In this document: one piece after another, positions 2,191 through 23,420 of the stretch
How positions within the stretch are numbered: the stretch's first letter is position 1
Layout of the letters: every line of letters begins with the position of its first letter
Source: Tolypothrix bouteillei VB521301
GTDB taxonomy: Bacteria; Cyanobacteriota; Cyanobacteriia; Cyanobacteriales; Nostocaceae
Direction: 5' to 3'
Assembly: GCF_000760695.4 (NCBI RefSeq)
Contig: NZ_JHEG04000001.1
Location: 8,283,123-8,347,122 of the forward strand
DNA length: 64,000 bases
Made by a program: the position numbers and the translations under genes
The notes under the pieces: model-generated
Told to the model about the DNA's origin: nothing
The model's database searches: none
Seen by the model: only the letters and a program-made list of their open reading frames with translations

Positions 2191-2264
2191 TCAGGTTAAC
2201 TTTAAGAGGGATGGGGAATTCCACCAAATCAGTTAAAATTCTAGATTGCTTTGGGAGAATCTTT

Positions 2265-5816: not shown

Positions 5817-5841
5817 TTTTTACCAATATTATTGGTAAAAA
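5817..5841. promoter_or_regulatory. 17-bp palindromic operator, copy 1
   Basis: The core TACCAATATTATTGGTA (5821-5837) is a perfect palindrome about one central base. Flanking T and A runs extend the arms to 12 bp. It sits 60-80 bases upstream of the exported Mop chimera. A related pair in the opposite sense, TTGGTA (5852-5857) and TACCAA (5864-5869), follows closely. The identical 17-mer occurs again at 10744-10760. A dimeric repressor or activator site is the likely reading. Confidence 0.65.
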
Positions 5842-5895
5842 GAGGCTTATCTTGGTACGATTTTACCAATCGCAAATTCTTTATTAAGTTTTTCC

Positions 5896-6204
5896 ATGAA
5901 AAGAAGACAACTTTTTGCCTTCATTAGATTAGCCGTTGCTAGTTTACTCCTGGTAAGTGGCTTGCGATGGTTCGATCCATCTCCTGCGATCGCACAATCT
6001 AACGCCAACCTACTTATATCTGCTGCTGCTAGCTTGAAAGATACGCTAGAGGAAGTCAACGATGAGATAGAGATAGAAATTGCACCGGGAGTAGCGGTAA
6101 CTGCGATTATCACAAAAACTTCAGTAGAGAAGCTAGGACTTCAAGAAGGAAAACAAGCTTACGCTATTATTAAAGCTTCAGATGTGATTGTTTCCGTTGA
6201 TTAG
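5896..6204 (+). CDS. Exported ModA-Mop chimera (signal peptide plus partial TOBE domain)
   Basis: The 102-residue protein joins two families. Residues 1-34 are a Sec signal peptide ending in PAIAQS, and NANLLISAAASLKDTLEEV is the N-terminus of a molybdate-binding protein ModA. From about residue 55 the sequence is a Mop/TOBE domain (EIEIAPGVAVTAIITKTS, then EGKQAYAIIKASDV) that closely matches the free Mop protein at 11658-11867. The rest of ModA is absent. The join falls where both families have a similar 'SA..LK.T..V' pattern, which suggests deletion by recombination at short homology. If made, it would be an exported fragment of an oxyanion-binding domain; function is uncertain. A strong palindromic operator lies upstream. 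Confidence 0.75.
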   Translation: MKRRQLFAFIRLAVASLLLVSGLRWFDPSPAIAQSNANLLISAAASLKDTLEEVNDEIEIEIAPGVAVTAIITKTSVEKLGLQEGKQAYAIIKASDVIVSVD

Positions 6205-6421
6205 GTAATTTTTTTACTGTCAAGCTTGGCGACTGAAGTGGAACTCTGGCTATCGAGCGTTGGAGTTCCTCACACGTAAAACTTACAGTGTAGCTAGCAA
6301 ATCCCAATGCAGCAGTAGCTGCTGAAGCGGTTTTGGCTAAGAGAAACATCCAGCCTGCTGTGAAACAAAACCAAGGATTCAGGTATTTGTAGCCATATTC
6401 GTAAAGATCCTTGTCGTCCAT
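6170..6421 (-). CDS. Possible small membrane protein, unrecognised
   Basis: This 83-residue frame begins MDDKDLYEYGYKYLNPWF and has one plausible membrane segment (residues about 19-48, ending in an Ala/Thr-rich stretch). It overlaps the last 35 bases of the ModA-Mop chimera tail to tail and is divergent from the GIDDTD gene. I see no clear ribosome-binding site. Composition looks protein-like in the first 55 residues and poor after that. It may be a real small protein or a chance frame. Confidence 0.35.
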   Translation of the reverse strand: MDDKDLYEYGYKYLNPWFCFTAGWMFLLAKTASAATAALGFASYTVSFTCEELQRSIARVPLQSPSLTVKKLPNQRKQSHLKL

Positions 6422-6426
6422 ATGAT

Positions 6427-6463
6427 AACTTAAAAAGTTGGTAAAATTGTGGTAAGGTTGGTA
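6427..6463. promoter_or_regulatory. Repeated TTGGTA half-sites
   Basis: GTTGGTA occurs twice, at 6437-6443 and 6457-6463, exactly 20 bases apart. The first is preceded by AACTT, giving a degenerate version of the island's 17-bp palindrome. The pair lies just before the GIDDTD gene start at 6492, in a suitable place for an operator. The match to the other operators is weak. Confidence 0.35.
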
Positions 6464-6491
6464 GAGTTCTCAAAACAAAGCACGGCATAGG

Positions 6492-7247
6492 ATGCGTCTT
6501 CTTATAGGCATAGACGATACTGATAATTTGACAAGTATTGGAACTGGCAAATTGGTCAGAATGTTGGGTCTAGAGCTAGTTGCTCGAGAATTAGCCCAAG
6601 TCATTGGAACAACTCGCCACCAGCTTTTAGTTAGCCCTGAAATTCCTTTTACTTCCCACAATAGTTCAGCCTGCATGATGGTAGAGACTGATACAGACAA
6701 AGTTGACAAGTTGACTGGCTATTGCCGGGAATTTCTTCTTAAAAACAGTGCAAGTGGATCGGATGCTGGGTTGTGTTTGGCTCCCTGGAATAGGGTTAAC
6801 CTTACAGTGCAGACGTTTGGCAAACTGGCAAAAGAAAAAGTCCTGACTCAGAAGGAAGCAATTGCAGTGGCTCAAGAAGCAGGGCTTTTTTTGGAAGGTT
6901 TGACAGGTACTAAAGGCGGAATCATTGGAGCACTTGCTGGAGTAGGTTTGCGAAAAACTGGAAACGATGGGCGATTTATTTGGTTACCTGGTTTATACGA
7001 ACTAGAAGGCATATATACTGCTCGTCAACTTTATCAAAATGTCGTTGGTGTCGATCGCATTCAAGATTTGACAGGGGAGTTAATACCCGAAGGGATGCGA
7101 ATACAAGTCAACAGTTGGCCTCGTCCGGTGCTACTCAACGGTCAAATTATCATGCTGGTGGCTCAAGCCACTGATGAAGCTCGCGAAGTAAAACAGGAAG
7201 ACTATGAATACCAAATGGCTCCCAAAAACATCGTTCGTCAATATTAA
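6492..7247 (+). CDS. TiaS-like GIDDTD-domain protein
   Basis: The 251-residue protein starts MRLLIGIDDTDNLTSIGTG. The GIDDTD signature belongs to the N-terminal ATP-binding domain of archaeal TiaS, the tRNA-Ile2 agmatidine synthetase. Here only that region and a short C-terminal part are present, without the TiaS OB-fold and zinc domains, so tRNA modification is not implied. Bacterial homologues of this size are usually uncharacterised. A second conserved block is EGLTGTKGGIIGALAGVGL (about 138-156). The gene overlaps the next membrane-protein gene by 44 bases, so the two are likely co-translated, and it sits in the oxyanion island. A role with that membrane protein in small-molecule or metal handling is inference. 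Confidence 0.6.
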   Translation: MRLLIGIDDTDNLTSIGTGKLVRMLGLELVARELAQVIGTTRHQLLVSPEIPFTSHNSSACMMVETDTDKVDKLTGYCREFLLKNSASGSDAGLCLAPWNRVNLTVQTFGKLAKEKVLTQKEAIAVAQEAGLFLEGLTGTKGGIIGALAGVGLRKTGNDGRFIWLPGLYELEGIYTARQLYQNVVGVDRIQDLTGELIPEGMRIQVNSWPRPVLLNGQIIMLVAQATDEAREVKQEDYEYQMAPKNIVRQY

Positions 7248-7779
7248 GCGTCTGGGTAAAGTCAACTGGCTAAAAGTTATCGGTCTGTTGGGAATAGGCT
7301 TTTTCATTGCCTTTTTGCAGGCAAATCTGCGCGTACCACTGAGATTACCCGGTTGGCGCGGGCTGACTTGGTTAACACCTCTTGTCGCGACTCGTTTGTC
7401 AACTTCTTTCTTTGGTGCTGCATCTGTTACCAGCCTTAGCGCAACAGGCTTTTCGCTCCTCCTCGGAGTCAGACACAATCCTTTTGATTGGTTTTTGTAT
7501 CTTGTGGTGGGAGAATTATTAGATTTGGCGTACCACTTCAACAAACAACGGCGACAAAAAATTTGGTTTTGGGCGATCGCTGCGGGGCTTGTCCACCTTA
7601 TTAAACCTTTATCTCAGACGATCGTAAGTGCTGGTGGAGGTTGGCGGTATGGAGCACTATTTGTTGCTGGTCCGTTTTACCCTCTGATGACACATTTGGT
7701 ATTTGGTGCGATCGCTGGGTTTCTAGGTGCAGCAACAGTATTTTGGGTCAAACGGCTGCATCGTTCTCAATCGCAATAA
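7204..7779 (+). CDS. Small polytopic membrane protein, ECF S-component-like
   Basis: The 191-residue protein has about five hydrophobic segments: KVIGLLGIGFFIAFLQ near residue 25, then helices near 60-85, 95-110, 120-140 and 150-180, with a basic C-terminus. Size, Gly/Ala-rich helices and the small-molecule-island setting resemble substrate-binding (S) components of ECF transporters, but I see no diagnostic signature. It starts inside the end of the GIDDTD gene in another frame, a typical operon overlap. No ECF ATPase or T component lies in the window. The call is by topology only. Confidence 0.5.
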   Translation: MNTKWLPKTSFVNIKRLGKVNWLKVIGLLGIGFFIAFLQANLRVPLRLPGWRGLTWLTPLVATRLSTSFFGAASVTSLSATGFSLLLGVRHNPFDWFLYLVVGELLDLAYHFNKQRRQKIWFWAIAAGLVHLIKPLSQTIVSAGGGWRYGALFVAGPFYPLMTHLVFGAIAGFLGAATVFWVKRLHRSQSQ

Positions 7780-7812
7780 GTTACTGTTCCTACAAAATTG
7801 GTAACCTAGGGT

Positions 7813-10359
7813 CTAAAACTCTAGGGAAAGAGTTCCTAAAACAGTAAACGGTGCGCCAGGAAAGATTTGCGTTCTACTTTGAGCAGATTCAAAGTATTGA
7901 ATGTCAAATAAATTCTTGATATTGAGTGCTACTCTCACATTCTCCTTCTTATAGTAAATAGCAGCGTCAACGCGAGCATAATCAGACAACGTAAAGCTGT
8001 TGTTTAGATCGCCAGGGCGGGAGCTGGCAAAAAACACGCCAGCACCAAAACCCAATCCTTGCAAATCTCCTTTTAGGAGCTGATAGGTTGTCCAGAAACT
8101 AAAGCTGTTTCGCGGAACACTTGCAAGACTGTTTCCTTCAGGAAAAGTGTTATCCTCTGTGAGGATAGCATCGGTGTATGCATAAGATGCAATCGCATTC
8201 CATCCGGGCAAAATCTCACCTATTAAATTTAACTCTACACCGCGACTGCGTTGTTCTCCTGTCTGGAGCGAGAAGTTTGGACGTTGGGGATCGACTGTTA
8301 ATACATTTGTTTTGGTAATTTGATAAAAGGCAATATTGGAAGTCAGGCGACCATTAAGCCAATCTGCTTTGACTCCGACTTCATATTGTGTTCCTCGTTC
8401 TGGTTTAAATGATTCCCCTTCAAAAGTGCTACCAGATTGGGGGACAAAGGAGCGGCTGTAATTAGCATATAGTGAAATGAGTTGAGTTGGCTGATAAACT
8501 ATGCCGAGCCTGGGGCTAAATGCTTCGCTGTAGGTGCTTGTTTTTCTCCTAAGGAGATTGTCCTGAAGATCGAAATCTACAAAATCAAAGCGCCCACCCA
8601 ATAAGAATTTAAAGTTATTAGCTAAAGCTATCTCATCTTGTAAATAAACCCCAAAAAGGTTTGTCTCTTCATTGCGATCTATGGTTCTTGTTCTTCGACT
8701 AATAGGAAAGCGGTAGACAGGGTTAAAAATATCGATCGAACCTGCTGTTGCATTGTCTGTGTCAACATCTCTAGCTTCATTACCATAGTCAAACCCTATA
8801 AGTGTTGTATGTCCGATCGATCCTGTCGAAAATTTACCAATTATGTTTGTTTGAAAGGTATTTGTACTAAAGAACTGCTCGCTATCTTGTAATTGCAAGT
8901 TTAATGTTCGATTATCTCTTTGTAAGGCATTATTACCTCGTGCTTGAATGGCAGAGAAATATTGATCGCTTGTTGTCGTCCGAAAAACACTATTCAAAGA
9001 CCAATTTTCACTAAAGCGATGGTCTAGAAATACATAACCCCTTTGCTGATAAACATCATTTTTGCGATTGGGATCGCCAAGGAAGCGACTGATAGGAATA
9101 TCTGCTACACGATTGCCAACAGCGACCAAGCCGAAATCAACAGGACGGCTATCTTCTAAATATTCATAAAAGAGACTGAGTGTTGTGTTTGGAGCAATAT
9201 TAAAAGAAATTTTGGGTGCAACAAAGAAGCGTTCTGATTCCACTCCAGAGCGAAAACTCCCACTATTCTCATAAGCAAGGTTTAAACGATACCGAGAATC
9301 AATGGTGCGATCGAGAGGTCCGGATAAGTCAAGATTGGCTCGATAAAAATCATAATTTCCTGCAATAAAATCTGCTGCATAATAAGGCATGGAAAGGGGT
9401 TTTTTACTTACTAAATTGACAATTCCCCCTGGTTCCGCCTGTCCGTACAGTACAGCAGATGGACCTTTGAGAATTTCGACGCGCTCAATATTGGAAAATT
9501 CTGTATAAACTCGATTGGCGTTGTTCCCTTCATTCAATCCATCTCGAAACTGGTCAGCTGTGAAACCCCGAGTTAAAAGGGAAAATTCATTGCGTGCGCC
9601 TCCCCTACCAGAGAGAGCAAATCCACTCACATTCCGAACGGCTTCATAAACAGTCAAGGCTTGTTGGTCTTGAATCACTTGCTGTGGAACAACCTGCACT
9701 GAAAAAGGAAGGTCCCGTAATGGAGTTCCTGTTTTGTTAACGGTGGCAAAGTCAGGAGCATTGTAACCTGACGGATTTCCCATGACATCTAATTCAATAT
9801 CGGGCTTTCCTGGAGAAAGAGTTAAGTTGAATAGCAATCCATTAGCATTTGCAGTAACTTGTGCTTCTGGTAAAGCAGTTTCTCCGGTCACGCTGATTTG
9901 GATAGTGGAAGTATTGATTTGGGTAACAGTAATAACTTTTATACCCTGTGTAGGGTTCTTTACTCGAAGGTCTTGAGGATCTTCTAGCGCTAAAACAGCA
10001 TTGGGAAGATTAGCTATGAAAGTATTACCTTCAGTTTTTGTAAAAGGCTGTTGTAATGTTCCTGTTGGTGTTTCCAATACAATTTCAACACCAGTGGAGG
10101 TTGGGTTAATCTTAACTCCTGTCACTTGTACAACAGTTGTATCGTTCGAGTTTTGAAGCAATAGAGAAGCGTTTGTAACTGCGGGCTTTAAGCCACTAAA
10201 GCTAGAAATTTTTTCCTCAATCGCGTGCGTGTGTTTTTTCGATTCTAATGATACACCTTGTACCCCATTTGATACGGCTCGAGCTGGTGCTGACTCTACA
10301 AGTACTGTCAGCGTAGTGCTCGTAAGGGTTAATAACCCAAGTAACTCAATTGTCTTCAA
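7813..10359 (-). CDS. TonB-dependent siderophore-type receptor with AMIN domain
   Basis: This 848-residue outer-membrane receptor has a signal peptide (cleavage probably after APARA, residue 28), an AMIN domain (about 75-185, begins TTVVQVTGVKINP), a plug domain (about 205-330, with LPFSVQVVPQQVIQDQ and EILKGPSAVLYGQAEPGG), and a 22-strand-type barrel ending in Phe (SLEF). The N-terminal AMIN domain is typical of cyanobacterial TonB receptors. The family imports metal chelates using TonB-ExbBD energy; the FhuE/FecA-like plug suggests a metallophore. No siderophore genes are adjacent, but Mop and ModA genes flank it, so an oxyanion chelate is possible. Upstream, after a MITE-like insert, lie two copies of the 17-bp palindrome. 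Confidence 0.9.
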   Translation of the reverse strand: MKTIELLGLLTLTSTTLTVLVESAPARAVSNGVQGVSLESKKHTHAIEEKISSFSGLKPAVTNASLLLQNSNDTTVVQVTGVKINPTSTGVEIVLETPTGTLQQPFTKTEGNTFIANLPNAVLALEDPQDLRVKNPTQGIKVITVTQINTSTIQISVTGETALPEAQVTANANGLLFNLTLSPGKPDIELDVMGNPSGYNAPDFATVNKTGTPLRDLPFSVQVVPQQVIQDQQALTVYEAVRNVSGFALSGRGGARNEFSLLTRGFTADQFRDGLNEGNNANRVYTEFSNIERVEILKGPSAVLYGQAEPGGIVNLVSKKPLSMPYYAADFIAGNYDFYRANLDLSGPLDRTIDSRYRLNLAYENSGSFRSGVESERFFVAPKISFNIAPNTTLSLFYEYLEDSRPVDFGLVAVGNRVADIPISRFLGDPNRKNDVYQQRGYVFLDHRFSENWSLNSVFRTTTSDQYFSAIQARGNNALQRDNRTLNLQLQDSEQFFSTNTFQTNIIGKFSTGSIGHTTLIGFDYGNEARDVDTDNATAGSIDIFNPVYRFPISRRTRTIDRNEETNLFGVYLQDEIALANNFKFLLGGRFDFVDFDLQDNLLRRKTSTYSEAFSPRLGIVYQPTQLISLYANYSRSFVPQSGSTFEGESFKPERGTQYEVGVKADWLNGRLTSNIAFYQITKTNVLTVDPQRPNFSLQTGEQRSRGVELNLIGEILPGWNAIASYAYTDAILTEDNTFPEGNSLASVPRNSFSFWTTYQLLKGDLQGLGFGAGVFFASSRPGDLNNSFTLSDYARVDAAIYYKKENVRVALNIKNLFDIQYFESAQSRTQIFPGAPFTVLGTLSLEF

Positions 10360-10446
10360 GATTCTGCCTCACACCAAAAATTAGATTGAACGCACTTTAC
10401 CCAGAGATGCTGATAGAAATGCGCTCAAGATACTGTTAAATGTCTC

Positions 10447-10603
10447 TAAGAGGATGTTTTAAAAGTCCTCTTGTTGGTAGCAAAACGTTTAGCTCCCCCA
10501 ATTTATTGGAGGACTTTAAGAGGTCTTTTCCACCTTAAAAAGGGGACTAGGGGGAGCGATAGGTGCTTAAAAACACAGCAAACCACTTTTCAAACAACCT
10601 CTA
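10447..10603. mobile_element. MITE-like element in receptor promoter region
   Basis: A 157-bp segment is bounded by imperfect terminal inverted repeats: AGAGGATGTTTTAAAAGT at the left, and at the right the complement of AGAGGTTGTTTGAAAAGT. Both ends abut TA dinucleotides, as expected for a Tc1/IS630-type MITE. It contains no gene. The paralogous promoter region at 18.0 kb lacks such an insert, since there the gene starts about 50 bases from the duplicated part. Confidence 0.5.
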
Positions 10604-10706
10604 AAGAACTTTCAAATCAAGTAAGTCCCACTGGATTGAGTCATTTGGTTTAATTCCTTGTGTTGTCGCCTAATATACGTCGGTATTTTTCTACGCTTTT
10701 ATAACT

Positions 10707-10723
10707 TACCAGCAAAGTTGGTG
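10707..10723. promoter_or_regulatory. 17-bp palindromic operator, copy 2
   Basis: TACCAGCAAAGTTGGTG matches the island consensus TACCAA-N5-TTGGTA with one change in each arm. It precedes copy 3 by exactly 37 bases. Its counterpart in the duplicated region is 18074-18090. Confidence 0.55.
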
Positions 10724-10743
10724 AAAATCAAGCCGAATAGAAT

Positions 10744-10760
10744 TACCAATATTATTGGTA
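10744..10760. promoter_or_regulatory. 17-bp palindromic operator, copy 3
   Basis: TACCAATATTATTGGTA is identical to the site at 5821-5837, flanked by T/A that extend the arms to 9 bp. It lies between the receptor gene and the divergent gene at 10996. Confidence 0.65.
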
Positions 10761-10995
10761 AAATGATGTAATTGATACAGTTTTGTGAAACTCATTCAGT
10801 TTTGATAATGTTTAAGGGGCTGTTATGTCTTCCGTTGAGATATACCAACCAAAATTTTCTTCTGTTGACTTTAGGCTTGGTAGACACTCTGCATTAACGA
10901 AAACAGGTTGGTAGTTAGTGGTTGGTATTTATGAGTCGCATCTAACTAACCGCTAACAATTAGCGTTCTTACAATTCTTGACTTACATAATTAGT

Positions 10996-11373
10996 ATGGC
11001 ATTTACACTCACGAACTCAAGTTGGTATGAGCAAGAACTCATTGGAGAATTCATGACAATTGTCAACCAATCTTTTCCAGAAGTACGCGCATTACTCAAA
11101 TACTGTTCCGTACAACTCGTCCGATCTTTTTGGGGACAATCTCACGCACACCTTCTACCATACATTGCCATCTATTGTCCAAATAACGTGTTTTTATCTG
11201 TTAAGGCACAAATCTCTGTGTTTCGACAAGTTGCAAAATATATGGGGTTGGCTGAGGTTGTCTGTTTAAACGCAACGAGCTTGCTGCAAGATCCCAAATC
11301 AACGCTCAAGCACGATCGTCCTCAGTTGTGGTTGGAGTTGCAATGGATTGCTGCTGAATCAGCGAATATTTAG
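10996..11373 (+). CDS. Hypothetical protein, 125 residues
   Basis: I do not recognise this protein. It starts MAFTLTNSSWYEQELIGEF at ATG 10996; the frame is open to a TTG at 10978. It looks soluble, with no signal peptide, and contains two cysteines (CSVQL, IYCPNN) and a Trp-rich C-terminus (LWLELQWIA). It is divergent from the TonB receptor and shares the duplicated two-operator region with it, so it may belong to the same regulon. The paralogous region at 18 kb has a truncated HsdR in the equivalent position. Confidence 0.5.
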   Translation: MAFTLTNSSWYEQELIGEFMTIVNQSFPEVRALLKYCSVQLVRSFWGQSHAHLLPYIAIYCPNNVFLSVKAQISVFRQVAKYMGLAEVVCLNATSLLQDPKSTLKHDRPQLWLELQWIAAESANI

Positions 11374-11657
11374 TAGCTGACACGAAATCTCTGCCCTGAC
11401 ATAAATATCGGGACGGACACTTTCTTTAAAGGAAATTTCTCTTCATGAGCACAGCGTGTCTGTAAGGTATAGTTTGCGAAGGAGGAAAGCAACGATTAGC
11501 TGTCTGTAGTGGGAGACCCATTTACAGTACTGTCACGGTCTCCTCCTCGCAATTTCTTTCCGCACAGAATACCCACTCAGCCTTTACGCGATCGAGGTTT
11601 CAAAGTTCCGTGGGGTAGCTTTTAAGGTGACTGAGAATTACCTCAAAGATGAAGCTA
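11374..11657. other. Intergenic gap between convergent genes, with hairpin
   Basis: No gene is visible in these 284 bases. GGAGACC (11512-11518) pairs with GGTCTCC (11537-11543) around a central CAGTACTG palindrome, giving a stable hairpin. There is no U-run, so a terminator role for the converging genes is uncertain. Confidence 0.35.
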
Positions 11658-11867
11658 TCAATCAATAGCTACCATGACATCTGAAGATTTGATAATGGCG
11701 TATGCTTGCTTACCTTCAGTCAATTGCAGTTTCTCTGCTGATGACTTTGTAATAATCGCTGTCACTTCTACTCCAGGAGCGACTTCCAGAATGACCTCAG
11801 TGTTAACAGATCCTTCAACAACTTTCTTAACAGTTGCTTTAAGAGCGTTACGAGCACTAACTTGCAT
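11658..11867 (-). CDS. mop: Molybdenum-pterin-binding protein Mop (single TOBE domain)
   Basis: The 69-residue cytoplasmic protein is one complete molbindin domain: MQVSARNALKATVKKV, VNTEVILEVAPGVEVTAIIT, EGKQAYAIIKSSDVMVAID. Mop proteins assemble as oligomers and bind molybdate or tungstate at subunit interfaces, buffering the oxyanion. The length is exactly that of the family, and a GGGGGC purine run lies before the ATG. It is the best single piece of evidence that the island deals with Mo/W-type oxyanions. It is the probable parent of the exported chimera at 5896-6204. I see no clear copy of the 17-bp palindrome in its promoter. Confidence 0.9.
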   Translation of the reverse strand: MQVSARNALKATVKKVVEGSVNTEVILEVAPGVEVTAIITKSSAEKLQLTEGKQAYAIIKSSDVMVAID

Positions 11868-12130
11868 GGCTATTTTGCCCCCGATAATTTTAACTGTTAC
11901 ACAATACTAGCTGACGCTAGCTTCAGAATTTACCACATTAAGCTTGATACTTGGTTTGCTCGTGACATTTAATTTTTTCTTAAAGATTAAACAACCAACA
12001 TCGATTGTGACTTGTGTTTTGTCAAAGAATGAAAAATAGATTGATAAATGGATACTCGCTTCTCAATGTTATTGATTGGGTTTACTTTATCCTTCAATCG
12101 GGTTTATCCGTAACTTTAAACACATATTTT

Positions 12131-12174
12131 TACTAACTTAGTTGGTAGAAGTATATATACTGGTTAAATTGGTA
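12131..12174. promoter_or_regulatory. Palindromic operator pair before porin
   Basis: TACTAACTTAGTTGGTA (12131-12147) fits the island consensus with one mismatch. A weaker version, TACTGGTTAAATTGGTA, follows at 12158-12174. Both lie within 60 bases of the porin start, so a bound protein would cover the promoter or the transcription start. The rest of the 11868-12190 gap shows no gene. Confidence 0.5.
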
Positions 12175-12190
12175 TTATTGTATTAAAGGT

Positions 12191-14071
12191 GTGAGGCAAA
12201 TGTCTGGTCTCGTTAGGAACTCGTTGTGGCTAGCTGCAATCCTGTTAGGAATGAATGCAAATGATACTCATGCAGCAAGCACAAGTTCATCAAGAAATGA
12301 AAGTCAAGAAATCAACAATTCATTGGCTCAAACACAAACCCAAGAAGTCTTAGTTTCGCAAGCACAAACGCAGGACAGTTCTTTCTCTGAACCCGTCAAG
12401 CTGACGAGCGATCGCCAACAAAAGCGTATTCAGGATTACGACAACAGAAATCCGAATTCTTTAAAAAGTCAAGTCACTTCTGTATCGCAACTTTCTGACG
12501 TGCAACCAACAGATTGGGCTTTTGTTGCATTGCAATCATTAGTTGAGCGTTATGGTTGTATTGCAGGGTATCCAAATGGAAGTTACCGAGGCAATAGAGC
12601 ACTGAATCGTTATGAATTTGCAGCTGGTCTAAATGCCTGTTTGGATAGAGTGAACGAGCTGATTGCCACAAGTACAGCTGAGGCTATGAGAAAGGAAGAC
12701 TTAGAAACTCTTCAAAGACTGCAACAAGAGTTTGCTGACGGGCTAAAAGAAATACGCGGACGGATAGATGGGTTAGAAGCTCGTTCTGCTGTGGTAGAAA
12801 GCCAACAATTTTCCACGACGACAAAGTTAAATGGAGAGGTCATCTTTACTCTAGGGAGTGTATTTGGTGAAGAGAGAGCATTGGACTCTGACCGATGGCG
12901 CAGAATTGAGGCTGCTCCTGCGGGACCACAGAGAGAAGCAGCTAGAGCAAATGAATATGCACAGGGGGGAGGACGCGAACTTCAAGATAATCCTATTCTT
13001 GCCAATCGCGTCCGCCTGAACTTATTAAGCAGTTTTACAGGCAAAGACCAACTGTTTGCTCGTTTGGAGTCGAATAATACGACTGCGTTTAGTGGAGCAG
13101 TTACAGGTACTAATATGACCCGTTTGGGATGGGATGGCGATACTCAGAATGACATTTTGTTAGGTAAGCTCTATTATCGGTTTCCTATAGGCGATAGATT
13201 GAATGTGATTGTTGATGCTATAGGCGGAGAATTTTATGACAATTTCAACACCGTCAACCCCTTCTTCTCCTCAGCACCGCAAGGAGCCATATCTCGCTTT
13301 GGTCGCTTTTCCCCTATTTACCGGGCTAGTAACACGGGTTCTGCTAGTAACACGGGTTCTGGTGTGAGTGCTATTTTTAAATTGAGCGACTCTGTCACTT
13401 TTTCTGCCGGGTATCTTGCCAGAAGAAGCAACGATCCGGGTCAGGGAAGGGGTTTGTTTGATGGAAGTTATGGAGCGCTAGCACAACTCGCTTTCGAGCC
13501 CAGTAAAATTTTTACTATTGGTTTGACCTACGCTCACTCTTACTTTAGCGGTACAAATAACGATGTGACAGTTTCAGGTGCATATGGCAGTGCTTTTGCC
13601 AACCAGCCCTTTGGTGCTAACGTTGCTACTTCGGCTAACCACTACAGTGTAGAAACAAGTCTTCGTCTTCACCCCAAATTTGCTCTTTCTGGTTGGGTTG
13701 GGTATACCCAAGCGATCGCAGAAAATGGTCGTGGTTTAGCCACAGTCAACACAGGTGATAAAGCAGATATTTGGAATTGGGCAGTTACATTAGCCTTTCC
13801 CGATCTTGGTAGAAAAGGCAACGTTGGAGGTCTTATCTTTGGTCAACCACCTAAAGTCACTGAAAATGACTTTGGTCCTTCTAACCCCGGTCCTACAACT
13901 GCTCGTCGTGAGGACAGCGATACTTCTTTTCACTTAGAAGCGCTGTATCGCTATCAACTCAATCGGAACATTTCTATTACACCTGGTGTTATCGTTATCT
14001 TTAATCCAGAACATAACAGTAATAACGATACTATCTACACGGGAGTTCTCCGGACAACATTTCGATTCTGA
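12191..14071 (+). CDS. Outer-membrane porin with SLH domain, OprB type (iron-uptake porin family)
   Basis: The 626-residue protein has a signal peptide (to about residue 27, THAAS), a Gln/Ser-rich linker, one SLH domain (about 95-155: QLSDVQPTDWAFVALQSLVERYG and GYPNGSYRGNRALNRYEFAAGL), a short coiled coil (about 165-205), and an OprB-like beta barrel ending in TTFRF. This order is the standard cyanobacterial porin that anchors to peptidoglycan by its SLH domain; several members are linked to uptake of metals or inorganic ions. GTG 12191 and ATG 12200 are both possible starts. An operator pair just upstream suggests co-regulation with the TonB receptor and modA genes, i.e. a porin for small oxyanions or chelates. 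Confidence 0.88.
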   Translation: MRQMSGLVRNSLWLAAILLGMNANDTHAASTSSSRNESQEINNSLAQTQTQEVLVSQAQTQDSSFSEPVKLTSDRQQKRIQDYDNRNPNSLKSQVTSVSQLSDVQPTDWAFVALQSLVERYGCIAGYPNGSYRGNRALNRYEFAAGLNACLDRVNELIATSTAEAMRKEDLETLQRLQQEFADGLKEIRGRIDGLEARSAVVESQQFSTTTKLNGEVIFTLGSVFGEERALDSDRWRRIEAAPAGPQREAARANEYAQGGGRELQDNPILANRVRLNLLSSFTGKDQLFARLESNNTTAFSGAVTGTNMTRLGWDGDTQNDILLGKLYYRFPIGDRLNVIVDAIGGEFYDNFNTVNPFFSSAPQGAISRFGRFSPIYRASNTGSASNTGSGVSAIFKLSDSVTFSAGYLARRSNDPGQGRGLFDGSYGALAQLAFEPSKIFTIGLTYAHSYFSGTNNDVTVSGAYGSAFANQPFGANVATSANHYSVETSLRLHPKFALSGWVGYTQAIAENGRGLATVNTGDKADIWNWAVTLAFPDLGRKGNVGGLIFGQPPKVTENDFGPSNPGPTTARREDSDTSFHLEALYRYQLNRNISITPGVIVIFNPEHNSNNDTIYTGVLRTTFRF

Positions 14072-14150
14072 AGAAAGGAAGAGTCTCAGGGCTCGTTCTT
14101 CGCAAAGACACAGGCAAAGATAATTGCACCACAAACTCGCAGCTACAAAT

Positions 14151-14167
14151 TACCAAGAGTATTGGTA
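14151..14167. promoter_or_regulatory. 17-bp palindromic operator, copy before truncated modA
   Basis: TACCAAGAGTATTGGTA carries both perfect half-sites TACCAA and TTGGTA with 5 bases between. It is 44 bases upstream of the ATG of the truncated modA gene. Confidence 0.6.
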
Positions 14168-14211
14168 GTTTGTCACTCAAATATCAATCTTATCAAGACA
14201 TTTTTAACACA

Positions 14212-14571
14212 ATGTTGAGACAAAGTTTACATCAGAAGCATATTTTAAATATTGCCTTTATGATAGTCACAATAACCCTCACGGTGTTTGTTGGAAATTT
14301 ATCAAATCTCTCACAAAGCAGTGCCCAACAGCCAAATACAGTCGCTCTAACCGTATCAGCTGGTGCGGGTTTGAAGCCTGTGCTGGAAGAGATTCAAAAA
14401 GCTTATACACATAAGCCACCGAACTTCAAGATTAATTATAATTTTGCTGCTTCTGGTGTTCTGACACGACAAATTGAACAAGGCGCAAAAATAGATATTT
14501 TTATTTCAGCTTCTAGTGAAAATATGAATGAACTAAAGGGTCAGGGACTTTTACCAAAAAACTGGGTTTAA
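14212..14571 (+). pseudogene. modA fragment, cut by TnpB element
   Basis: The first 119 residues of a periplasmic molybdate-binding protein remain: signal peptide (MLRQSLHQKHILNIAFMI, cleavage near AQQ), then LTVSAGAGLKPVLEEI, FNFAASG-like FAASGVLTRQIEQG, and DIFISASSENM, which match the ligand-binding start of ModA. Full ModA has about 250 residues. The frame stops at TAA 14569-14571, inside the left end of a TnpB insertion element, and no remaining ModA sequence is found beyond that element. So insertion was accompanied by loss of the 3' half. ATG 14212 is preferred to TTG 14170 because it begins the signal peptide. An operator lies upstream. Confidence 0.75.
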
Positions 14572-14646
14572 AGCCCCGTCCTTCAAGGACGGCTTTACAT
14601 TATTTTATCTAGCAATATAGCAGATAAAATATGTTATAATCAGGAC

Positions 14647-15885
14647 ATGATAGTAAGAGAAGCCAAGCTAAAAAACGGAACCAAAGAGCAATACTTAGCC
14701 CTTGATGAGGCTATCAGAACAACGCAGTTTATTAGAAATAAAGCTGTACGGTTTTGGATGGACAATAAAGGAGTTAGTAAAGCTATTTTGTACAACTTAT
14801 GCAAAGATTTGGCAGCAGAGTTTCCTTTCGCAAAGAAGTTAAACTCTGCTGCTAGACAAGCTAGTGCTGAACGGGCTTGGGCTGCTATCTCTACGTTTTA
14901 TTCACGATGCAAAAAAGGTTCGGGGAAGAAAGGCTATCCAAAATTCAAAAAACATTGCCGCTCGGTAGAGTACAAAGTTTCGGGATGGAAGTTATCAAGT
15001 GATTGTAAATCAATCACCTTCACTGACGGCTTTGAGGCTGGAACTTTTTCTATATTTTGCAACAATGAAACTCAAGAAGACTTGCACAGATTAAAGATTA
15101 ATCGGGTGCGAGTAATTAGAAAAGCAGACGGTTATTATGCTCAGTTTTGCTTTGATGCTGACCGCAAGGAAACAGGAAAATATACGGGTAACGTTGTTGG
15201 GTTAGATTTGGGGTTAAAGTTTTTCACCAAAGATCAACACGATAATGCCGTGATATATCCACAATTCTTGCGTTCGTCAGAAAAGCGATTAAAGAAAGCC
15301 CAACGCCGTCTGAGTAAGAAATTCGTCAAGGGTGCTAAACCCCAATCAAAAAACTATCACAGACAAAGGAAAAGACTGGGTAAAATCCATCTAAAAATTC
15401 AGAGGCAGCGTCAAGACTGGGCAATTAAGCAAGCTCGGTGCGTAGTCCACTCTAACGATGTGGTTGTCTATGAAGATTTAAAGATTGCCAATATGGTAAA
15501 AAATCATCAATTGGCTAAGTCCATTTCTGATGCTGGTTGGTATCAATTCACTCAATGGCTAGACTATTATGGCAAGATTTGGGACAAAGCAGTTGTGGCG
15601 GTGTCACCTAACTACACATCACAAGATTGTTCTAATTGCGGTCATAGAGTGAAAAAATCTCTCAGTACCAGAACGCATTCCTGTCCTAAGTGCAAAATTG
15701 AACTATGCCGAGATACCAATGCGGCTCTGAACATTTTGCAAAAAGGAATGAAGATACTCGGTACTGAGTGGCAACTAAACGGTACTTCTGGGCAAGAAGA
15801 ATCCGCCTCTTGCGAGGGAAAGCATGGGGAGAAGACCGCCTCTACTATTGAAGGGAAACTCGATATAGCAAGTGGACTTCTGTGA
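14647..15885 (+). CDS. tnpB: RNA-guided endonuclease TnpB (OrfB, IS605 family)
   Basis: The 412-residue protein has an N-terminal helix-turn-helix-like region with OrfB_IS605 residues, a RuvC-type nuclease core and a zinc finger. Catalytic acids are visible: D in VGLDLGLKFF (about 190), E in VVYEDLKIANM (about 277), D in CRDTNAALNIL (about 359). The zinc ribbon is CSNCGH then CPKC. All are intact, so the nuclease may be active. Family members cut DNA using a guide RNA made from the element's right end, which favours retention of the element. The last about 35 residues are Ser/Glu-rich and overlap the presumed guide-RNA region. Confidence 0.93.
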   Translation: MIVREAKLKNGTKEQYLALDEAIRTTQFIRNKAVRFWMDNKGVSKAILYNLCKDLAAEFPFAKKLNSAARQASAERAWAAISTFYSRCKKGSGKKGYPKFKKHCRSVEYKVSGWKLSSDCKSITFTDGFEAGTFSIFCNNETQEDLHRLKINRVRVIRKADGYYAQFCFDADRKETGKYTGNVVGLDLGLKFFTKDQHDNAVIYPQFLRSSEKRLKKAQRRLSKKFVKGAKPQSKNYHRQRKRLGKIHLKIQRQRQDWAIKQARCVVHSNDVVVYEDLKIANMVKNHQLAKSISDAGWYQFTQWLDYYGKIWDKAVVAVSPNYTSQDCSNCGHRVKKSLSTRTHSCPKCKIELCRDTNAALNILQKGMKILGTEWQLNGTSGQEESASCEGKHGEKTASTIEGKLDIASGLL

Positions 15886-15931
15886 ACCATGAACTAGAAT
15901 CACCGTGGCTTCAGCCCGGTGAGTATGTCAA
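15760..15931 (+). ncRNA. Candidate omega RNA (reRNA) of TnpB element
   Basis: In TnpB elements the guide RNA spans the 3' end of tnpB and the right end, with the guide taken from sequence just outside. Here the right end carries a hairpin (TCACCG/CGGTGA) 5-10 bases from the boundary. The guide would begin near 15931 (AATTTTGTAAGG). The boundaries are inferred from family knowledge; no promoter was identified. Confidence 0.35.
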
Positions 15932-15989
15932 ATTTTGTAAGGTAGTTCTGTTTATTTCCGCTTACCTACTTATATCTGGCAGTGAAAGT

Positions 15990-16598
15990 TTATCTTTTGA
16001 AACGAAAATCTGGAGCGGAAAGCACATAAATGCGCCTAATGTTACTAATATAACGTCCTCCTCTTGCATCACCAGGGACTACTAGACGGGCGAACCCCTC
16101 ATTTGTTAGCAATTGTGGACCTAAAGATGGATCGTCGTTTGTTGCATATGCAACTAGCACTTGTTTGTTTTCAAAGTTTGGTTGAATTTCACCCACTGCT
16201 ATAACGACTTGATAGCAGTCAGTTGCTTCAAGGACAATGTACTGTCGCAGGAAGTTATTTTTCACACTTTCGTCAGGATTTGGTTTTAATCCCCCTGCAC
16301 TCTCAATAAGTTGCCATAGAAGCACTCCAACGTAGGTATGGGTTTCTTGACCTTGCCCTGTTAGGAAACTAACAGTGACTTCACTTGACGGTAATGACTG
16401 AAGATCTGATAGGGTAAAAGTTCTCCAATTTACAACTTGACCGCCCAAACGGAAACGGTCTGAGGGACCAGCAGAACACTCTTTTTGTTGTTCAAAAGTT
16501 GCGTCATTATCATTATACGAGTCAGCCAAAGTAGGCTGTCCTAACCCCAACATTGATAGCGTCAGGGACACAAGAGCGATGCGGCGAGTCAAACGCAT
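15990..16598 (-). CDS. Exported molybdopterin-dependent oxidoreductase-fold protein
   Basis: The 202-residue protein has a signal peptide (to about residue 25, PTLADS) and one domain resembling the oxidoreductase molybdopterin-binding (sulfite-oxidase) fold: WRTFTLSDLQSLPSSEVTVSF, YVGVLLWQLIESAGGL, LRQYIVLEATDCYQVVIAVGEI, then LVVPGDARGGRYISNIRRIYV. The single cysteine in TDCYQ is not clearly the molybdenum-ligating cysteine, so cofactor binding is unproven; many short homologues lack it. It acts in the periplasm. Its presence fits a molybdenum island. Degenerate TACCAA half-sites lie in the upstream region. Confidence 0.7.
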   Translation of the reverse strand: MRLTRRIALVSLTLSMLGLGQPTLADSYNDNDATFEQQKECSAGPSDRFRLGGQVVNWRTFTLSDLQSLPSSEVTVSFLTGQGQETHTYVGVLLWQLIESAGGLKPNPDESVKNNFLRQYIVLEATDCYQVVIAVGEIQPNFENKQVLVAYATNDDPSLGPQLLTNEGFARLVVPGDARGGRYISNIRRIYVLSAPDFRFKR

Positions 16599-16691
16599 AA
16601 AGTATGTTTCAGCTTTTCATTCAAGGAGGCAGTTTGTCTGTTGCTCATTTCTAGTTGGAACCAGTACAGAGGAAGTCTCTGTTGGAGTTAC

Positions 16692-16718
16692 TACCAACTC
16701 TGTAGCTGTTACCAACTT
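16692..16718. promoter_or_regulatory. Direct TACCAACT repeats upstream of oxidoreductase-fold gene
   Basis: TACCAACT occurs at 16692-16699 and 16710-16717, 18 bases apart. A GTTGG lies at 16681-16685. These are half-sites of the island palindrome rather than a full site. They lie 90-120 bases upstream of the gene starting at 16598 (minus). Confidence 0.3.
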
Positions 16719-16790
16719 TGTTTATACCACGATACGCGATCGGTCATGCAGCATAAACTTTGCAATTTACTAAAAGTGTGATTCATAGGT

Positions 16791-17036
16791 ATGAGTCCGG
16801 GAAAACCAACCCGCACCTTACCTTGGTCGGGAACACTCGTCAACACGGCGATCGCAAACTTAGCACCCTGGCTGCAATCTTGGGATAGCTATCAAGCGAC
16901 TGTAGCCATGGCAGCAATTAATGCTGTTATTAACCCATCTTTGCCACTTTTAAGCCACCATGTTCACTGTTTGGTTAAAAATTCTGCTTTAACTTTAGTT
17001 AACCGATTGGGAAGATACAAACTTTTTCTTCTGTAA
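16791..17036 (+). pseudogene. DUF364/DUF4213-like remnant
   Basis: This 81-residue frame begins MSPGKPTRTLPWSGTLV and continues LAPWLQSWDSYQATVAMAAINA, which resembles the N-terminal (DUF4213) part of DUF364 proteins, a Rossmann-like family thought to take part in heavy-metal chelation. The match ends near 16965, the rest is unrelated sequence, and the tail runs into the 3' end of the modA gene on the other strand. Full proteins have about 250 residues, so this is a fragment. The family is often seen near metal transport genes, in line with the island. Confidence 0.45.
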
Positions 17037-17954
17037 CAACGCAACACTAGCTGCAAGAAAAATGGCTATACTTTGGTGTTCGGGGACTTTAGTTGAGCGA
17101 GAAGGCGCACTAAAGCCATACTTTGCTAGAATACTTTGTCCTGTCGGTGAAAGAATATATTCAGCGAGCTTTGTACCATCAGGATTGGCGTCTTTCAAAA
17201 CAGTTAAACCATAATCAGCTCTAACGGCTAATTCGTCAGGCAATTCTATCACTTGTAAATTAGGAGAGATTTCAAGTGCTGCTAGGGCGCTAGTGTAATA
17301 GGACAAAAAGACATCTGCTTGTTGAGTCTCTTCAAGGAAGTATACTAGGTTGTTTTTTCCGTTTGGAACTGGTGGAGAATTTGGTCCACCTACCAAACGC
17401 AAAGCTTTTGCATCAAGCGTTTGAAAGCTTCCTGGTTTTAAGTCATCAATTTTGCGGAATATTTCCTGTGCATAATCCCCAGAAGGATCGGATATGGCTG
17501 TTGAAGTACCTAGTTTAATCTCAGGATCTAAAAGCGTATCTACAAGATTCTCCGATGTCACTGATAATCCAGGTCTGACAACTAGAGTCATGCGGTTGCT
17601 AGTAAAGTTAACAATGGGATTGCTCAAACCTTGTTCGTACAATTTTTGCGGGTTCCCAATGTCAGCACTGGCAAATACGTCAGGCTTGTCTCCGTTTTCT
17701 ATGCGTTCTCGCAGCGTTCCAGATGGACCGAATTCTGTTGTTACAGGATTTTTGTACTCTTGTGAGAAGGCGTTAGCAACTTCTGTTAAAGCACCTCTCA
17801 AACTTCCGGCTCCATATAAACCGATCGCTTGAGGTTCAGATTGAGATTGACTGCTAAATGTCGCAGCGAAAGCCCTAGTAGGTGTAACACTGGAAATACA
17901 AGTGAATACAGAGATAGCAAGTAAAGACTTGCCTATATTATTTGAGCTAAACAT
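16995..17954 (-). CDS. modA: ModA-type molybdate/oxyanion-binding protein with PEP-CTERM-like tail
   Basis: The 319-residue exported protein has a signal peptide (to about residue 31, TRAFA) and a type II periplasmic binding fold of the ModA family: LYGAGSLRGALTEVANAF, TTEFGPSGTLRERIENG, PDVFASADIGNPQKL, LGTSTAISDPSGDYAQEI, and DVFLSYYTSALAAL. Ser residues near the first and second motifs would contact the oxyanion. After about residue 290 comes VPEHQSIAIFLAASVALL followed by QKKK, which fits a PEP-CTERM sorting tail (VPE, helix, basic end). No ModB or ModC is in the window. Two palindromic operators lie upstream in duplicated region B. The substrate could equally be tungstate or vanadate. 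Confidence 0.85.
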   Translation of the reverse strand: MFSSNNIGKSLLAISVFTCISSVTPTRAFAATFSSQSQSEPQAIGLYGAGSLRGALTEVANAFSQEYKNPVTTEFGPSGTLRERIENGDKPDVFASADIGNPQKLYEQGLSNPIVNFTSNRMTLVVRPGLSVTSENLVDTLLDPEIKLGTSTAISDPSGDYAQEIFRKIDDLKPGSFQTLDAKALRLVGGPNSPPVPNGKNNLVYFLEETQQADVFLSYYTSALAALEISPNLQVIELPDELAVRADYGLTVLKDANPDGTKLAEYILSPTGQSILAKYGFSAPSRSTKVPEHQSIAIFLAASVALLQKKKFVSSQSVN

Positions 17955-18073
17955 ATTGAGGCTTATTTGCTTTGTACTTTTTACAACAGGTACTGTGGTC
18001 TTTTAACGCTTTTGATTTGATTCCTCCTGTTGTCGCAGAATATACAACAACATTTTTGTATGCTTTTATAAAT

Positions 18074-18090
18074 TACCAGCTAAGTTGGTA
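18074..18090. promoter_or_regulatory. 17-bp palindromic operator upstream of modA, distal
   Basis: TACCAGCTAAGTTGGTA matches the consensus with one base off in the left arm. It is the counterpart of 10707-10723. Confidence 0.6.
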
Positions 18091-18110
18091 AAAAATCAAG
18101 AGTGTTTTGG

Positions 18111-18127
18111 TACCAACCATATTGGTA
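18111..18127. promoter_or_regulatory. 17-bp palindromic operator upstream of modA, second
   Basis: TACCAACCATATTGGTA has both perfect half-sites. It is the counterpart of 10744-10760. Confidence 0.6.
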
Positions 18128-18283
18128 AAATGATGCAATTGATACAGTTTTATGAAACTACTTCAGTTTTGATACTCTTTAGAGATGGTTACGTCTTCCA
18201 TTGAAATCTACCAACCAAAATTTTTTCTGTTAATTGCAGGCTTAAGCAGACACTCTGCATTACCTTAAAACTAAGTCTTTCTA

Positions 18284-19195
18284 ATGAACTCTAAATTGTC
18301 ACAAGTAGCAACCGTAAAAGCCTACCATCTTTCTGGTAGACTTTGCCAACGCATAGACAAAAAATCTAATGTCGCCTTACAAGACTGGCTAACATGGTTT
18401 GAGGTCATTGGATATACGATTCAATCAGACTCAGATATCCGAAAAGAGTGGGTAGAAGAAAGCAGCGATTTCAGGGGAATTTTACGCGATCGCCTCTACA
18501 AAGCCTTAAAACAGATTAACTCCAAAGTTTCAGCAGATGTACTTCAGAAAGCTATCTCTCAAATTGTCGGCATCCAGAGCGATAACAGAAACATATTTGA
18601 AAGCAACAAAATTTTTCATCAATACTTGACTGAAGGTATAGACATTGTGTACCGGGACAATGACCAAATAGTTTCTGAAAAAGTTTGGCTCATCGATCCA
18701 TCTAATTTACTTAACAATGACTGGTTAGTGACTTATTCAGAGAACCCGATTGAAAGGCGTTTGATTCGCTGTTGGGATACTCTTGTTTTCATCAACGGAT
18801 TGCCACTTGCATTAATTGTTTGTACTGACACGAGCAGCAGGTATACTACGTTAAAGCAAGTTTATCAGAAATTTCAAGCTGACAAACAACAAAATCCTAA
18901 ATGGTTGGCCTACAATGAATTTCTAGCGATCGCTTGTGGAGGACGAGCAAGAATTGGTACTTTAACCTCTGATTGGGAAGAGTTTCAACCATGGCGAACC
19001 GTTGATGGAGAAAGCTTTTCTCATAAAGAAGAAACAGAATTAGAGATATTGATTCAAGGAATTTTTGACAAGCGGCGATTTACAGAACTGCTCAAACACT
19101 TCATTATCTTTGAAAGAAATGGGACTATCATCAATAAACAATTGCGCTGTTATTCTTTTTGTACAGTACCACATCCAAAGGTTATTGGTTTGTAG
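18284..19195 (+). pseudogene. Truncated type I restriction subunit HsdR (N-terminal part)
   Basis: The 303 residues resemble the N-terminal nuclease part of HsdR: FHQYLTEGIDIVYRD, RCWDTLVFINGLPLALIV, then ELLKHFIIFERNG near the junction with the motor domain. HsdR proteins have about 1000 residues, so the helicase motor is missing. The nuclease motif is also damaged: the first acid (WDTLVFINGLPL) remains, but the following ExK is replaced by IVCTD. No HsdM or HsdS is near. It is transcribed away from modA and shares duplicated region B with it, so it may have captured that promoter. Loss of function is likely. Confidence 0.65.
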
Positions 19196-20644: not shown

Positions 20645-20901
20645 GTCTCTAATAATTAGGTAAACCGGGGTCAAAGGTTAAAAAAGGTGGGCTGGTACAG
20701 CCAGCCCTATCAAACTAAACAAAATTTCCAGACAAACAACTCTTTTTACCTCTGCGTTCTTTGCATCTAGCACAGTTAATAAATGACTTTTTTACCGCAG
20801 AGGTACAGAGAGCACAGAGAGAAGAGCAGAGGCTGTATTACAAGAAAATGGCAAAGGAGAAAAACTTACCTTTTATTCTTCATCCTTTACCCTTTATTCT
20901 T

Positions 20902-22235
<1,334 letters not shown>

Positions 22236-23420
22236 CTAAATAGTTGCAACAACTTCCCCGATGTTGTTTATGTTATATCCACCGAGAATTTCTAATTGTG
22301 AATGAACAAGCCGATGTTCTAAGGTACTAAGCAATTGCTGCACGGGGGGTTCTTCCAGATATTCCTTCAGAATGACCAAATCATACCGTGATTCACGTAA
22401 AGGAATAAATCCCAAACCAAAGATAGCTGCTACAGAGGCTGTGCTCATACCTGCATCAGCAATTCCTGATGCAACAGCACAAGCTACATCTTGATGGCTT
22501 TTGACTATACGGTCAAATCCTTTCACAGTATCAAACGGCACCTGAACATCCCGCAATTGTTGTTCCAGCAGCATCCGACTGCCAGAACCCGACTCGCGAT
22601 TGACAATGTTTGCTCCAGTTTCCACGAGGTCAGTGACAGTTTTGATTCCCATTGGGTTACCTGGTTGGACTAAGATTCCTTCTTCCCAAACACCAAGAGT
22701 GATAACAACTGCTGGTCTTTTAGCTAAGGTATCCCGGATGAAGGGAAGGTTATACTCGCCAGTTTGAGGATCGTATAAATGCATCCCAGCGATATGAACT
22801 TCACCCCGACACAGACTGTGTAAAGCAGCCATGCTGTTTGCAAAGTTAAATTGAACCCGCAACTTAGGATACCAGCGTTCGGTTGCTTTTGCCCAAAGAG
22901 AAAACACGGGTGTGCAACCAGCGATCGCAACTGTATTGTGAAGTTTGTCCAAATCATCTAAAAGCTGGACTTGAACCTTCTTTGTATGTGTTTGGTTTTG
23001 AACTTCATCCTCTTGGTGTGACGAGTTGCTTGTACCACGGAACTTTTCTGCAACGACCTCACCATCAGCTGGAATCATATCCATACGAAAAGCGTTTCTC
23101 CCAATGAGGGGGTAAGCAACCCATTGTCCCCCAACTCGTGCAAGGCTAACTCGCAATTTTTGGTTGAAGGACACTTCTTTGACAAGAGTTGCTTCAATTT
23201 GGGTCAAATCTTGCTCAAACCAGAATAAATCCTCAACTTGACAACCAAGTGCTTTAGCTAAGCGCAATGAAATAGCAACCGAAGGTGCATACTGTCCTGA
23301 CTCAACACCACTAATAGTCTGACGGGTAACACCAGCTAGGTTTGCCAATTCTTGTTGGCTCATGCCCAAACGGGTTCTGATTGACTTTAAGTTGTTGCGG
23401 ATATCACTTTCCTGCTTCAC
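22236..23420 (-). CDS. XRE-type HTH regulator fused to periplasmic-binding-like domain
   Basis: The 394-residue protein has an N-terminal XRE helix-turn-helix (about 8-65: MSQQELANLAGVTRQTISGVESGQ), a middle segment (75-165), and a C-terminal PBP-like (COG1910/PBP_like_2) domain (about 165-385) with FNFANSMAALHSLCRGEVHIAGMHLYDP, NRESGSGSRMLLEQQL, HQDVACAVASGIADAGM and LGFIPLRESRYDLVI. This architecture is known from regulators thought to sense molybdate or tungstate and related ligands by the ModA-like domain. It is upstream of nifH and the nifE-like gene in the same direction. It is the best candidate in the window to bind the recurrent palindrome, but that is inference. Confidence 0.85.
   Translation of the reverse strand: MKQESDIRNNLKSIRTRLGMSQQELANLAGVTRQTISGVESGQYAPSVAISLRLAKALGCQVEDLFWFEQDLTQIEATLVKEVSFNQKLRVSLARVGGQWVAYPLIGRNAFRMDMIPADGEVVAEKFRGTSNSSHQEDEVQNQTHTKKVQVQLLDDLDKLHNTVAIAGCTPVFSLWAKATERWYPKLRVQFNFANSMAALHSLCRGEVHIAGMHLYDPQTGEYNLPFIRDTLAKRPAVVITLGVWEEGILVQPGNPMGIKTVTDLVETGANIVNRESGSGSRMLLEQQLRDVQVPFDTVKGFDRIVKSHQDVACAVASGIADAGMSTASVAAIFGLGFIPLRESRYDLVILKEYLEEPPVQQLLSTLEHRLVHSQLEILGGYNINNIGEVVATI

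Follow-up and report, generated by a model that had tools for sequence, protein, structure and literature searches.

Palindromic sites in a molybdate uptake cluster

The window analysed here, a 64-kb stretch of the 9.95-Mb genome of Tolypothrix bouteillei VB521301 (G000:C1:8283123-8347122), holds a cluster of modA, Mop, porin and TonB receptor genes among which a 17-bp palindrome, TACCAA-N5-TTGGTA, recurs between the genes (Table 1). The seven places given for this palindrome in an initial annotation were all recovered, exact at 5821, 10744, 14151 and 18111, with one mismatch at 12131 and 18074 and with two at 10707, a weak copy, and none lies inside any nameable gene. Between positions 5800 and 18200 (12.4 kb) there are four exact copies and six with no more than one mismatch, for which 4000 first-order Markov simulations gave expected means of 0.00025 and 0.031, the observed counts being reached in none. 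Over the whole 64 kb, matches with up to three mismatches numbered 65, compared with 35.5 (standard deviation 5.6) in shuffles; a further copy with one mismatch, at 41692, falls inside an open reading frame (ORF) for a TPR protein. Promoter-like sites, as found in a promoter and terminator scan, were no commoner than in shuffles (17 vs 23.7).

The absence of comparable copies elsewhere, as first noted, holds only in part. The motif is not confined to the cluster, with nine exact copies in the genome against two for the reversed control pattern, and 105 against 35 at up to one mismatch, but only one of the five exact copies outside the window is a clear operator, the other four lying inside other, unrelated genes.

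A candidate regulator with a molbindin domain

The best candidate for the regulator, on comparative evidence, is a 149-residue protein encoded 3.9 Mb from the window (C1:4356056-4356505, minus strand; L001:1046-1495), here called RHH-Mop, rather than the VnfR-like XRE-PBP protein encoded beside the cluster. An exact palindrome (C1:4356511-4356527) ends 5 bp before the ATG of its gene. The C-terminal half of RHH-Mop is a molbindin domain (TIGR00638, 68.9 bits against a cut-off of 55) that matches solved structures of molybdate-binding molbindins (best E 3.8e-30), and TOBE was detected in all 24 family members scanned. There is a single TOBE stretch, the ModE model covers residues 81-147 only, and no helix-turn-helix (HTH) family was listed. 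The first 45 residues appear ribbon-helix-helix (RHH)-like: they share 40-62% identity over 19-35 residues with nine small proteins, and three of the five such relatives scanned passed the Pfam cut-off for RHH_1. Two traits of the RHH superfamily, a palindromic operator and autoregulation, are predicted computationally, from the palindrome upstream of the protein's own gene. A protein search returned 981 matches at E up to 0.001; the best 120 of these carry TOBE, and those among the 120 with an organism label are cyanobacterial and often titled 'molybdopterin-binding protein', the closest organism-named relative being from Scytonema (P0003, 91%).

Sites before the regulator gene and before modA

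The palindrome is conserved upstream of the RHH-Mop gene itself. Among the named loci, which are the best 80 of 186 found and biased to close relatives, 54 carry, in the 330 bp upstream, a copy that is exact (33 loci) or has a single mismatch, compared with 4 of 1475 control windows; ten have a site with two mismatches and 16 one with three or four. Of the 54 sites, 27 lie at exactly -22, one at -30 and 26 at -222 to -247, the latter nearly all in Nostoc. A further 30 genomes gave 18 sites with at most one mismatch (14 exact) and 12 with two to four; 15 of these 18 lie at -22 to -24, including cases where RHH-Mop protein identity is down to 50-53%. A logo was drawn from 50 distinct sites before the regulator gene. 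Because only sites with up to one mismatch were picked, its outer positions mostly reflect that choice; YTWAR is preferred in the middle, and the flanking bases are rich in A and T. The refined pattern, TACCAA-YTWAR-TTGGTA, matched the genome of T. bouteillei 29 times at up to two mismatches, against ten for the control.

The site before canonical modA follows the presence of the RHH-Mop gene. This comparison drew on 31 genomes with the gene, 30 of which gave a locus, and on 30 loci from 46 matches in genomes without it; upstream regions were located by match coordinates, and for one locus without the gene (L231) 128 positions were examined instead of 340. Two genomes stood outside both groups, G149 with a fragment of the gene and G008 with a modA that gave no locus. 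Counting sites with no more than one mismatch in the roughly 300 bp upstream, 26 of the 30 genomes that carry the gene have one (16 exact), among them that of T. bouteillei, whose canonical modA lies at C1:111394, as against one of 30 without; the other four genomes with the gene have a site with two or three mismatches, and the reversed control pattern gave none at up to one mismatch in either group. The Fisher p of 2e-11 is optimistic given relatedness, and contrasts within a genus are the better argument: G157 and G262 have both the gene and an exact site and G255 has neither, and a second such contrast separates G143 from G147, G183 and G268. The sole exception without the gene (G233) and its sister genome (G051) each retain a short stop-containing stretch that matches the molbindin part (E 5.8e-5 and 1.3e-5, respectively). 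It adjoins an ORF, which we take to be RecQ-like, that L196 and L202 also have close to their intact gene. We read this as a recent loss of the RHH-Mop gene, to judge from these remnants. The PRK03537-type modA genes also have the site, at up to two mismatches, in six of six cases from five genomes.

Further genes preceded by the site extend the predicted regulon. In other genomes it stands before modA divergent from the RHH-Mop gene (L195, L196, L197, L311), modA-modBC (L192, L193), modBC (L198), OprB porin genes (L198, L206, L208), a PRK03537-type modA (L208), Mop (L200), HSDR_N genes (L195, L204, L209), RHH-only paralogues (L199, L205) and vnfR (L200, L204, L210, L307). Common to the window and to other genomes are modA, the porin, Mop and the HSDR_N gene; for the TonB receptor no other genome gave support. 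The RHH-only paralogues, which are without molbindin (L199:3851-4129 and L205:4000-4209), each have an exact operator and lie near a second, longer vnfR-like gene, and in L195 a luciferase-like monooxygenase gene follows the HSDR_N gene. In total, 30 genomes with the RHH-Mop gene hold 107 exact sites, against 20 for the control.

Organization of the cluster

Table 1. Genes and predicted operators of the cluster, in window coordinates.
Feature	Position	Strand	Remarks
Predicted operator, exact (TACCAATATTATTGGTA)	5821..5837	.	58 bp before ModA/Mop chimera
ModA/Mop chimera, 102 aa	5896..6204	+	ModA-like N-terminus (1-54) and later part of Mop/TOBE domain; TOBE 39.4 bits
TonB-dependent receptor with AMIN domain, candidate target	7813..10359	-	Pfam; without support from a second genome
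Weak operator copy, two mismatches	10707..10723	.	37 bp from exact copy
Predicted operator, exact	10744..10760	.	Between TonB receptor (-) and 131-aa ORF (+)
131-aa protein, no family match	10978..11373	+	Relatives (38-41%) near vnfR genes in L199, L200, L205, L210
Mop, single molbindin domain	11658..11867	-	Divergent from porin; TOBE match G000:C1:8294792-8294980; ends read off sequence
Predicted operator, one mismatch (TACTAACTTAGTTGGTA)	12131..12147	.	43 bp before porin
Degenerate copy, three mismatches	12158-12174	.	After operator at 12131
SLH-OprB porin	12191..14071	+	Pfam; relatives with site in L198, L206, L208
Predicted operator, exact	14151..14167	.	Before truncated modA
5' part of canonical modA	14170..14571	+	Aligned to positions 8-137 of modA profile only
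IS200/IS605-type TnpB gene	14647-15885		Adjoins cut modA
modA, PRK03537 type	16995..17954	-	
Predicted operator, one mismatch	18074..18090	.	
Predicted operator, exact	18111..18127	.	Between modA (-) and HSDR_N gene (+)
HSDR_N-type nuclease-like gene	18284..19195	+	Pfam; relatives with exact site upstream in L195, L204, L209
Duplicated regulatory region, ends approximate	10653..10910 and about 18010-18260	.	Alignment; two operators per copy
VnfR-type protein (XRE HTH and PBP_like)	22236..23420	-	

The initial annotation placed the sites before genes for oxyanion or metallophore uptake, and the part that stands is molybdate uptake, the metallophore side consisting of one TonB receptor that no second genome confirms. 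This receptor is also the weakest target assignment, since its sites lie 348 and 385 bp from the listed start, in a divergent intergenic region. Three nonribosomal peptide synthetase genes surround the cluster (2175-5615, 24032-28861 and 35874-40025), the product of which is possibly a metallophore imported by the receptor. At 6492-7247 lies a gene for a small protein with weak, below-cut-off matches to TiaS and methanogenesis marker 11.

The cluster bears traces of rearrangement. Residues 1-54 of the chimera are 61% identical to modA of L196, and this fusion of a ModA N-terminus with a Mop tail, still behind an exact operator, probably arose by deletion. The 3' part of the cut modA is absent among the modA matches of the genome. 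The regulatory region present twice in the window spans about 250 bp per copy, and the copies resemble each other well past the operators.

A proposed mechanism and the evidence against it

On its conservation before molybdenum-uptake genes in many cyanobacteria, we take the palindrome to be a real DNA control site, and we think it very probable, from the combined comparative evidence, that it is the operator of RHH-Mop, a small one-component repressor sensing molybdate or tungstate. Computation shows that the sites are conserved and go together with the RHH-Mop gene, that this gene has an operator of its own, which genes the sites precede, and that the C-terminus is homologous to molbindins. 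We infer an RHH fold, binding of DNA and of oxyanion, regulation in vivo, and repression rather than activation, the last because the operator lies at the regulator's start codon and a Mo-transport gene is reportedly repressed by Mo. As a dimer or higher oligomer, the protein would contact the palindrome through its RHH-like N-terminal domain, and its single C-terminal molbindin (Mop/TOBE) domain would take up molybdate or tungstate. With ample oxyanion, loaded RHH-Mop would sit on its operators and shut off the molybdate uptake genes, a repressed set that would include modA, modBC, the OprB porin gene, perhaps the TonB receptor gene, Mop and the RHH-Mop gene itself; when the oxyanion is scarce, these genes would be released. 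What would survive of the suggestion that one regulator serves all these genes is a shared palindromic operator and a single regulon centred on molybdate uptake, with a different protein as the regulator than the XRE-PBP protein first proposed.

Several observations weigh against this interpretation. RHH scores of two full-length RHH-Mop members are 13.2 and 15.6 bits against a cut-off of 20.5. RHH_1 is detected in six of the 24 members, with E values of up to 0.5 that miss the Pfam cut-off, while zf-CRD, an unrelated family, gives weak matches, likewise sub-threshold, in 20 of the 24. Comparison with solved structures gave no RHH match. The regulator's own operator is decayed, moved or missing in genus g5 and part of Nostoc, and in G008, which carries the gene, an exact site precedes modA, but the region before the RHH-Mop gene has no site even at two mismatches. 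Three modA-like genes of the T. bouteillei genome (L299, L300, L301) are without such an upstream site. The co-occurrence is partly inherited, the genomes lacking the gene being more distant on average, and 52 chosen genomes without the gene still hold 38 exact sites against 22 for the control. A bare match to the motif is weak evidence, because among 59 exact sites in nine genomes, sorted by hand, 25 lie inside genes or repeats and seven in other intergenic places, with 27 before Mo-linked or regulator genes; the HSDR_N and RHH-only genes were counted among the 27, and two of the 25 were assigned solely through sequence identity.

Comparative data alone do not separate a regulator from a conserved target, and the RHH-only paralogues (L199, L205) also have operators, so that another transcription factor might bind the operator, with the RHH-Mop gene merely one of its targets and the protein storing molybdate. 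We consider this improbable: the RHH-Mop gene and the modA site go together, both between families and inside genera, the protein combines DNA-binding-like and oxyanion-binding domains, and the genome has six TOBE matches, the other five of which carry no DNA-binding domain, judged by length and sequence. A ModE-type regulator in this genome was rejected, none being present among the six.

VnfR and the vnf genes

The XRE-PBP protein (22236-23420), proposed as the regulator in the initial annotation, is the only strong PBP_like match in the genome (221 bits; next 42.5) and by its architecture and its position before vnfH would be a VnfR-type protein, like those described in Anabaena variabilis. 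Its gene lies close to the sites of the window, and passages of a review (PMC4284476) describe VnfR1 and VnfR2 of A. variabilis as Mo-dependent repressors of vnf genes and report in vitro binding of VnfR1 upstream of ava4025. Its distribution led us to reject it as the general reader of the palindrome: a search at E 1e-60 detected VnfR in only 9 of the 31 genomes with RHH-Mop, compared with modA sites in 26 of 30, so that VnfR is not needed for the operator. Of the 22 RHH-Mop genomes without it, 21 have a modA locus and 20 of these 21 keep the modA site at up to one mismatch. The vnfR gene of the window itself has no upstream site at up to two mismatches, and in A. variabilis tungstate represses the Mo-transport gene but not vnfH, according to the same review (PMC4284476). 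That VnfR reads the palindrome is accordingly very unlikely in our judgement. An exact site does lie 271-279 bp upstream of vnfR in four relatives, which could reflect autoregulation; from this placement vnfR looks like a target gene of the regulon. These four are half of the eight genomes with a full-length vnfR match (in two pieces in G125) and represent two genera; T. bouteillei is among the four without the site.

A conserved vnf cluster is described in parts of PMC6645180. The window holds vnfR, vnfH and a nifE-like gene at 19289-23420, and L204 has the same group with a further nifE/N-like gene. No VnfD was found above the family cut-off in the genome, and a V-nitrogenase in T. bouteillei was therefore rejected; the vnfH and nifE-like genes here would serve something other than a complete V-nitrogenase. 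An inverted repeat, GCTACCATG..CATGGTAGC, lies between vnfR and vnfH at 22115-22155; it was considered as a VnfR site and rejected, as it was not seen in four relatives.

Two further explanations have little to recommend them. The palindrome stands at -22 to -6 of the start codon in many regulator genes and might act there as an RNA hairpin with a 6-bp stem and a 5-base loop, an idea to which we give almost no credence: other copies stand 100-390 bp upstream and between divergent genes, where they serve both strands, the five bases that would form the loop have their own preference (YTWAR), and no Rfam family was found in the window at the gathering threshold. A local duplication of promoter DNA without regulatory meaning, which the two duplicated regions with two sites each and the rearranged modA fragments and modA/Mop chimera would suggest, is the least credible of all, being refuted as a full account by the conservation of sites at other loci in other genera and families.

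Comparison with known metal-responsive regulators

Like RHH-Mop as proposed here, ModE of Escherichia coli senses molybdate through a molbindin (TOBE) domain and, as a one-component regulator, represses modABC. ModE has a winged-helix N-terminal domain and two molbindin domains, whereas RHH-Mop has an RHH-like N-terminus, one molbindin domain and the operator TACCAA-YTWAR-TTGGTA. The difference from the E. coli site that the initial annotation pointed out was borne out when the operator logo was set against ATCGNTATATA-N6-TATATANCGAT, the ModE site as given in part of PMC545781. Of the features of the ModE family, the protein has the molbindin sensor but neither the winged helix with two molbindins nor a ModE-like site, and RHH-Mop is not a ModE, as far as architecture and site can tell. 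In A. variabilis, a 'modE homolog' upstream of modA has been named as the probable Mo-dependent regulator of molybdate transport, neither its fold nor its operator being described in the passages drawn on from the review (PMC4284476). RHH-Mop is probably this homolog, an identity suggested by gene position elsewhere, since in 20 of the 80 named loci, Anabaena azotica (L107) and Anabaena sp. 4-3 (L137) among them, its gene lies next to modA in divergent orientation; in the flanks examined of the other 60, no modA was found.

The VnfR1 and VnfR2 repressors share the same Mo-dependent physiology and differ in that the VnfR-type protein of the window joins an XRE HTH to a PBP_like sensor and is not required for the palindrome. 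Closer in design are the chimeric integrase-MOP proteins of Desulfovibrio, which combine an unusual DNA-binding domain with molybdate-binding domains beside mod genes; there the domain is of the phage-integrase type, and an inverted repeat beside the mod genes, CGGTCACG-N14-CGTGACCG, has been assigned to ModE. The tungsten regulator TunR is of this integrase-MOP type. NikR, which represses uptake genes, joins an RHH DNA-binding domain to a small ACT-type nickel sensor domain, and thus resembles RHH-Mop in combining RHH with a small metal-sensing domain; it differs in its site, GTGTTAC-N13/14-GTAACAC. No report of the palindromic operator or of an RHH-molbindin regulator was found among the titles and abstract starts listed by searches of CC-licensed PMC papers, and the passages of PMC3627308 consulted contain nothing on a regulator.

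Implications for molybdenum supply in cyanobacteria

Nitrogen fixation requires molybdenum, and most fresh waters contain little of it, as stated in parts of PMC3440940. Cyanobacterial Mo sensing has so far been put down to an uncharacterised 'modE homolog'. The present analysis offers a candidate protein, its operator and a short list of targets, with a motif sharp enough for gel-shift and point-mutation tests. The OprB porin gene, the HSDR_N gene and vnfR are predicted as new molybdenum-responsive genes, and RHH-Mop, by its composition, would add a further type to the DNA-binding domains found fused to molbindin sensors. We see an evenly balanced case for a broader role, in which RHH-Mop would represent a new class of oxyanion sensor and the master regulator of Mo supply in heterocyst-forming cyanobacteria, governing passage across both membranes through the OprB porin and ModA/ModBC; in some species it may repress vnfR together with uptake, while VnfR represses vnf, forming a two-step cascade.

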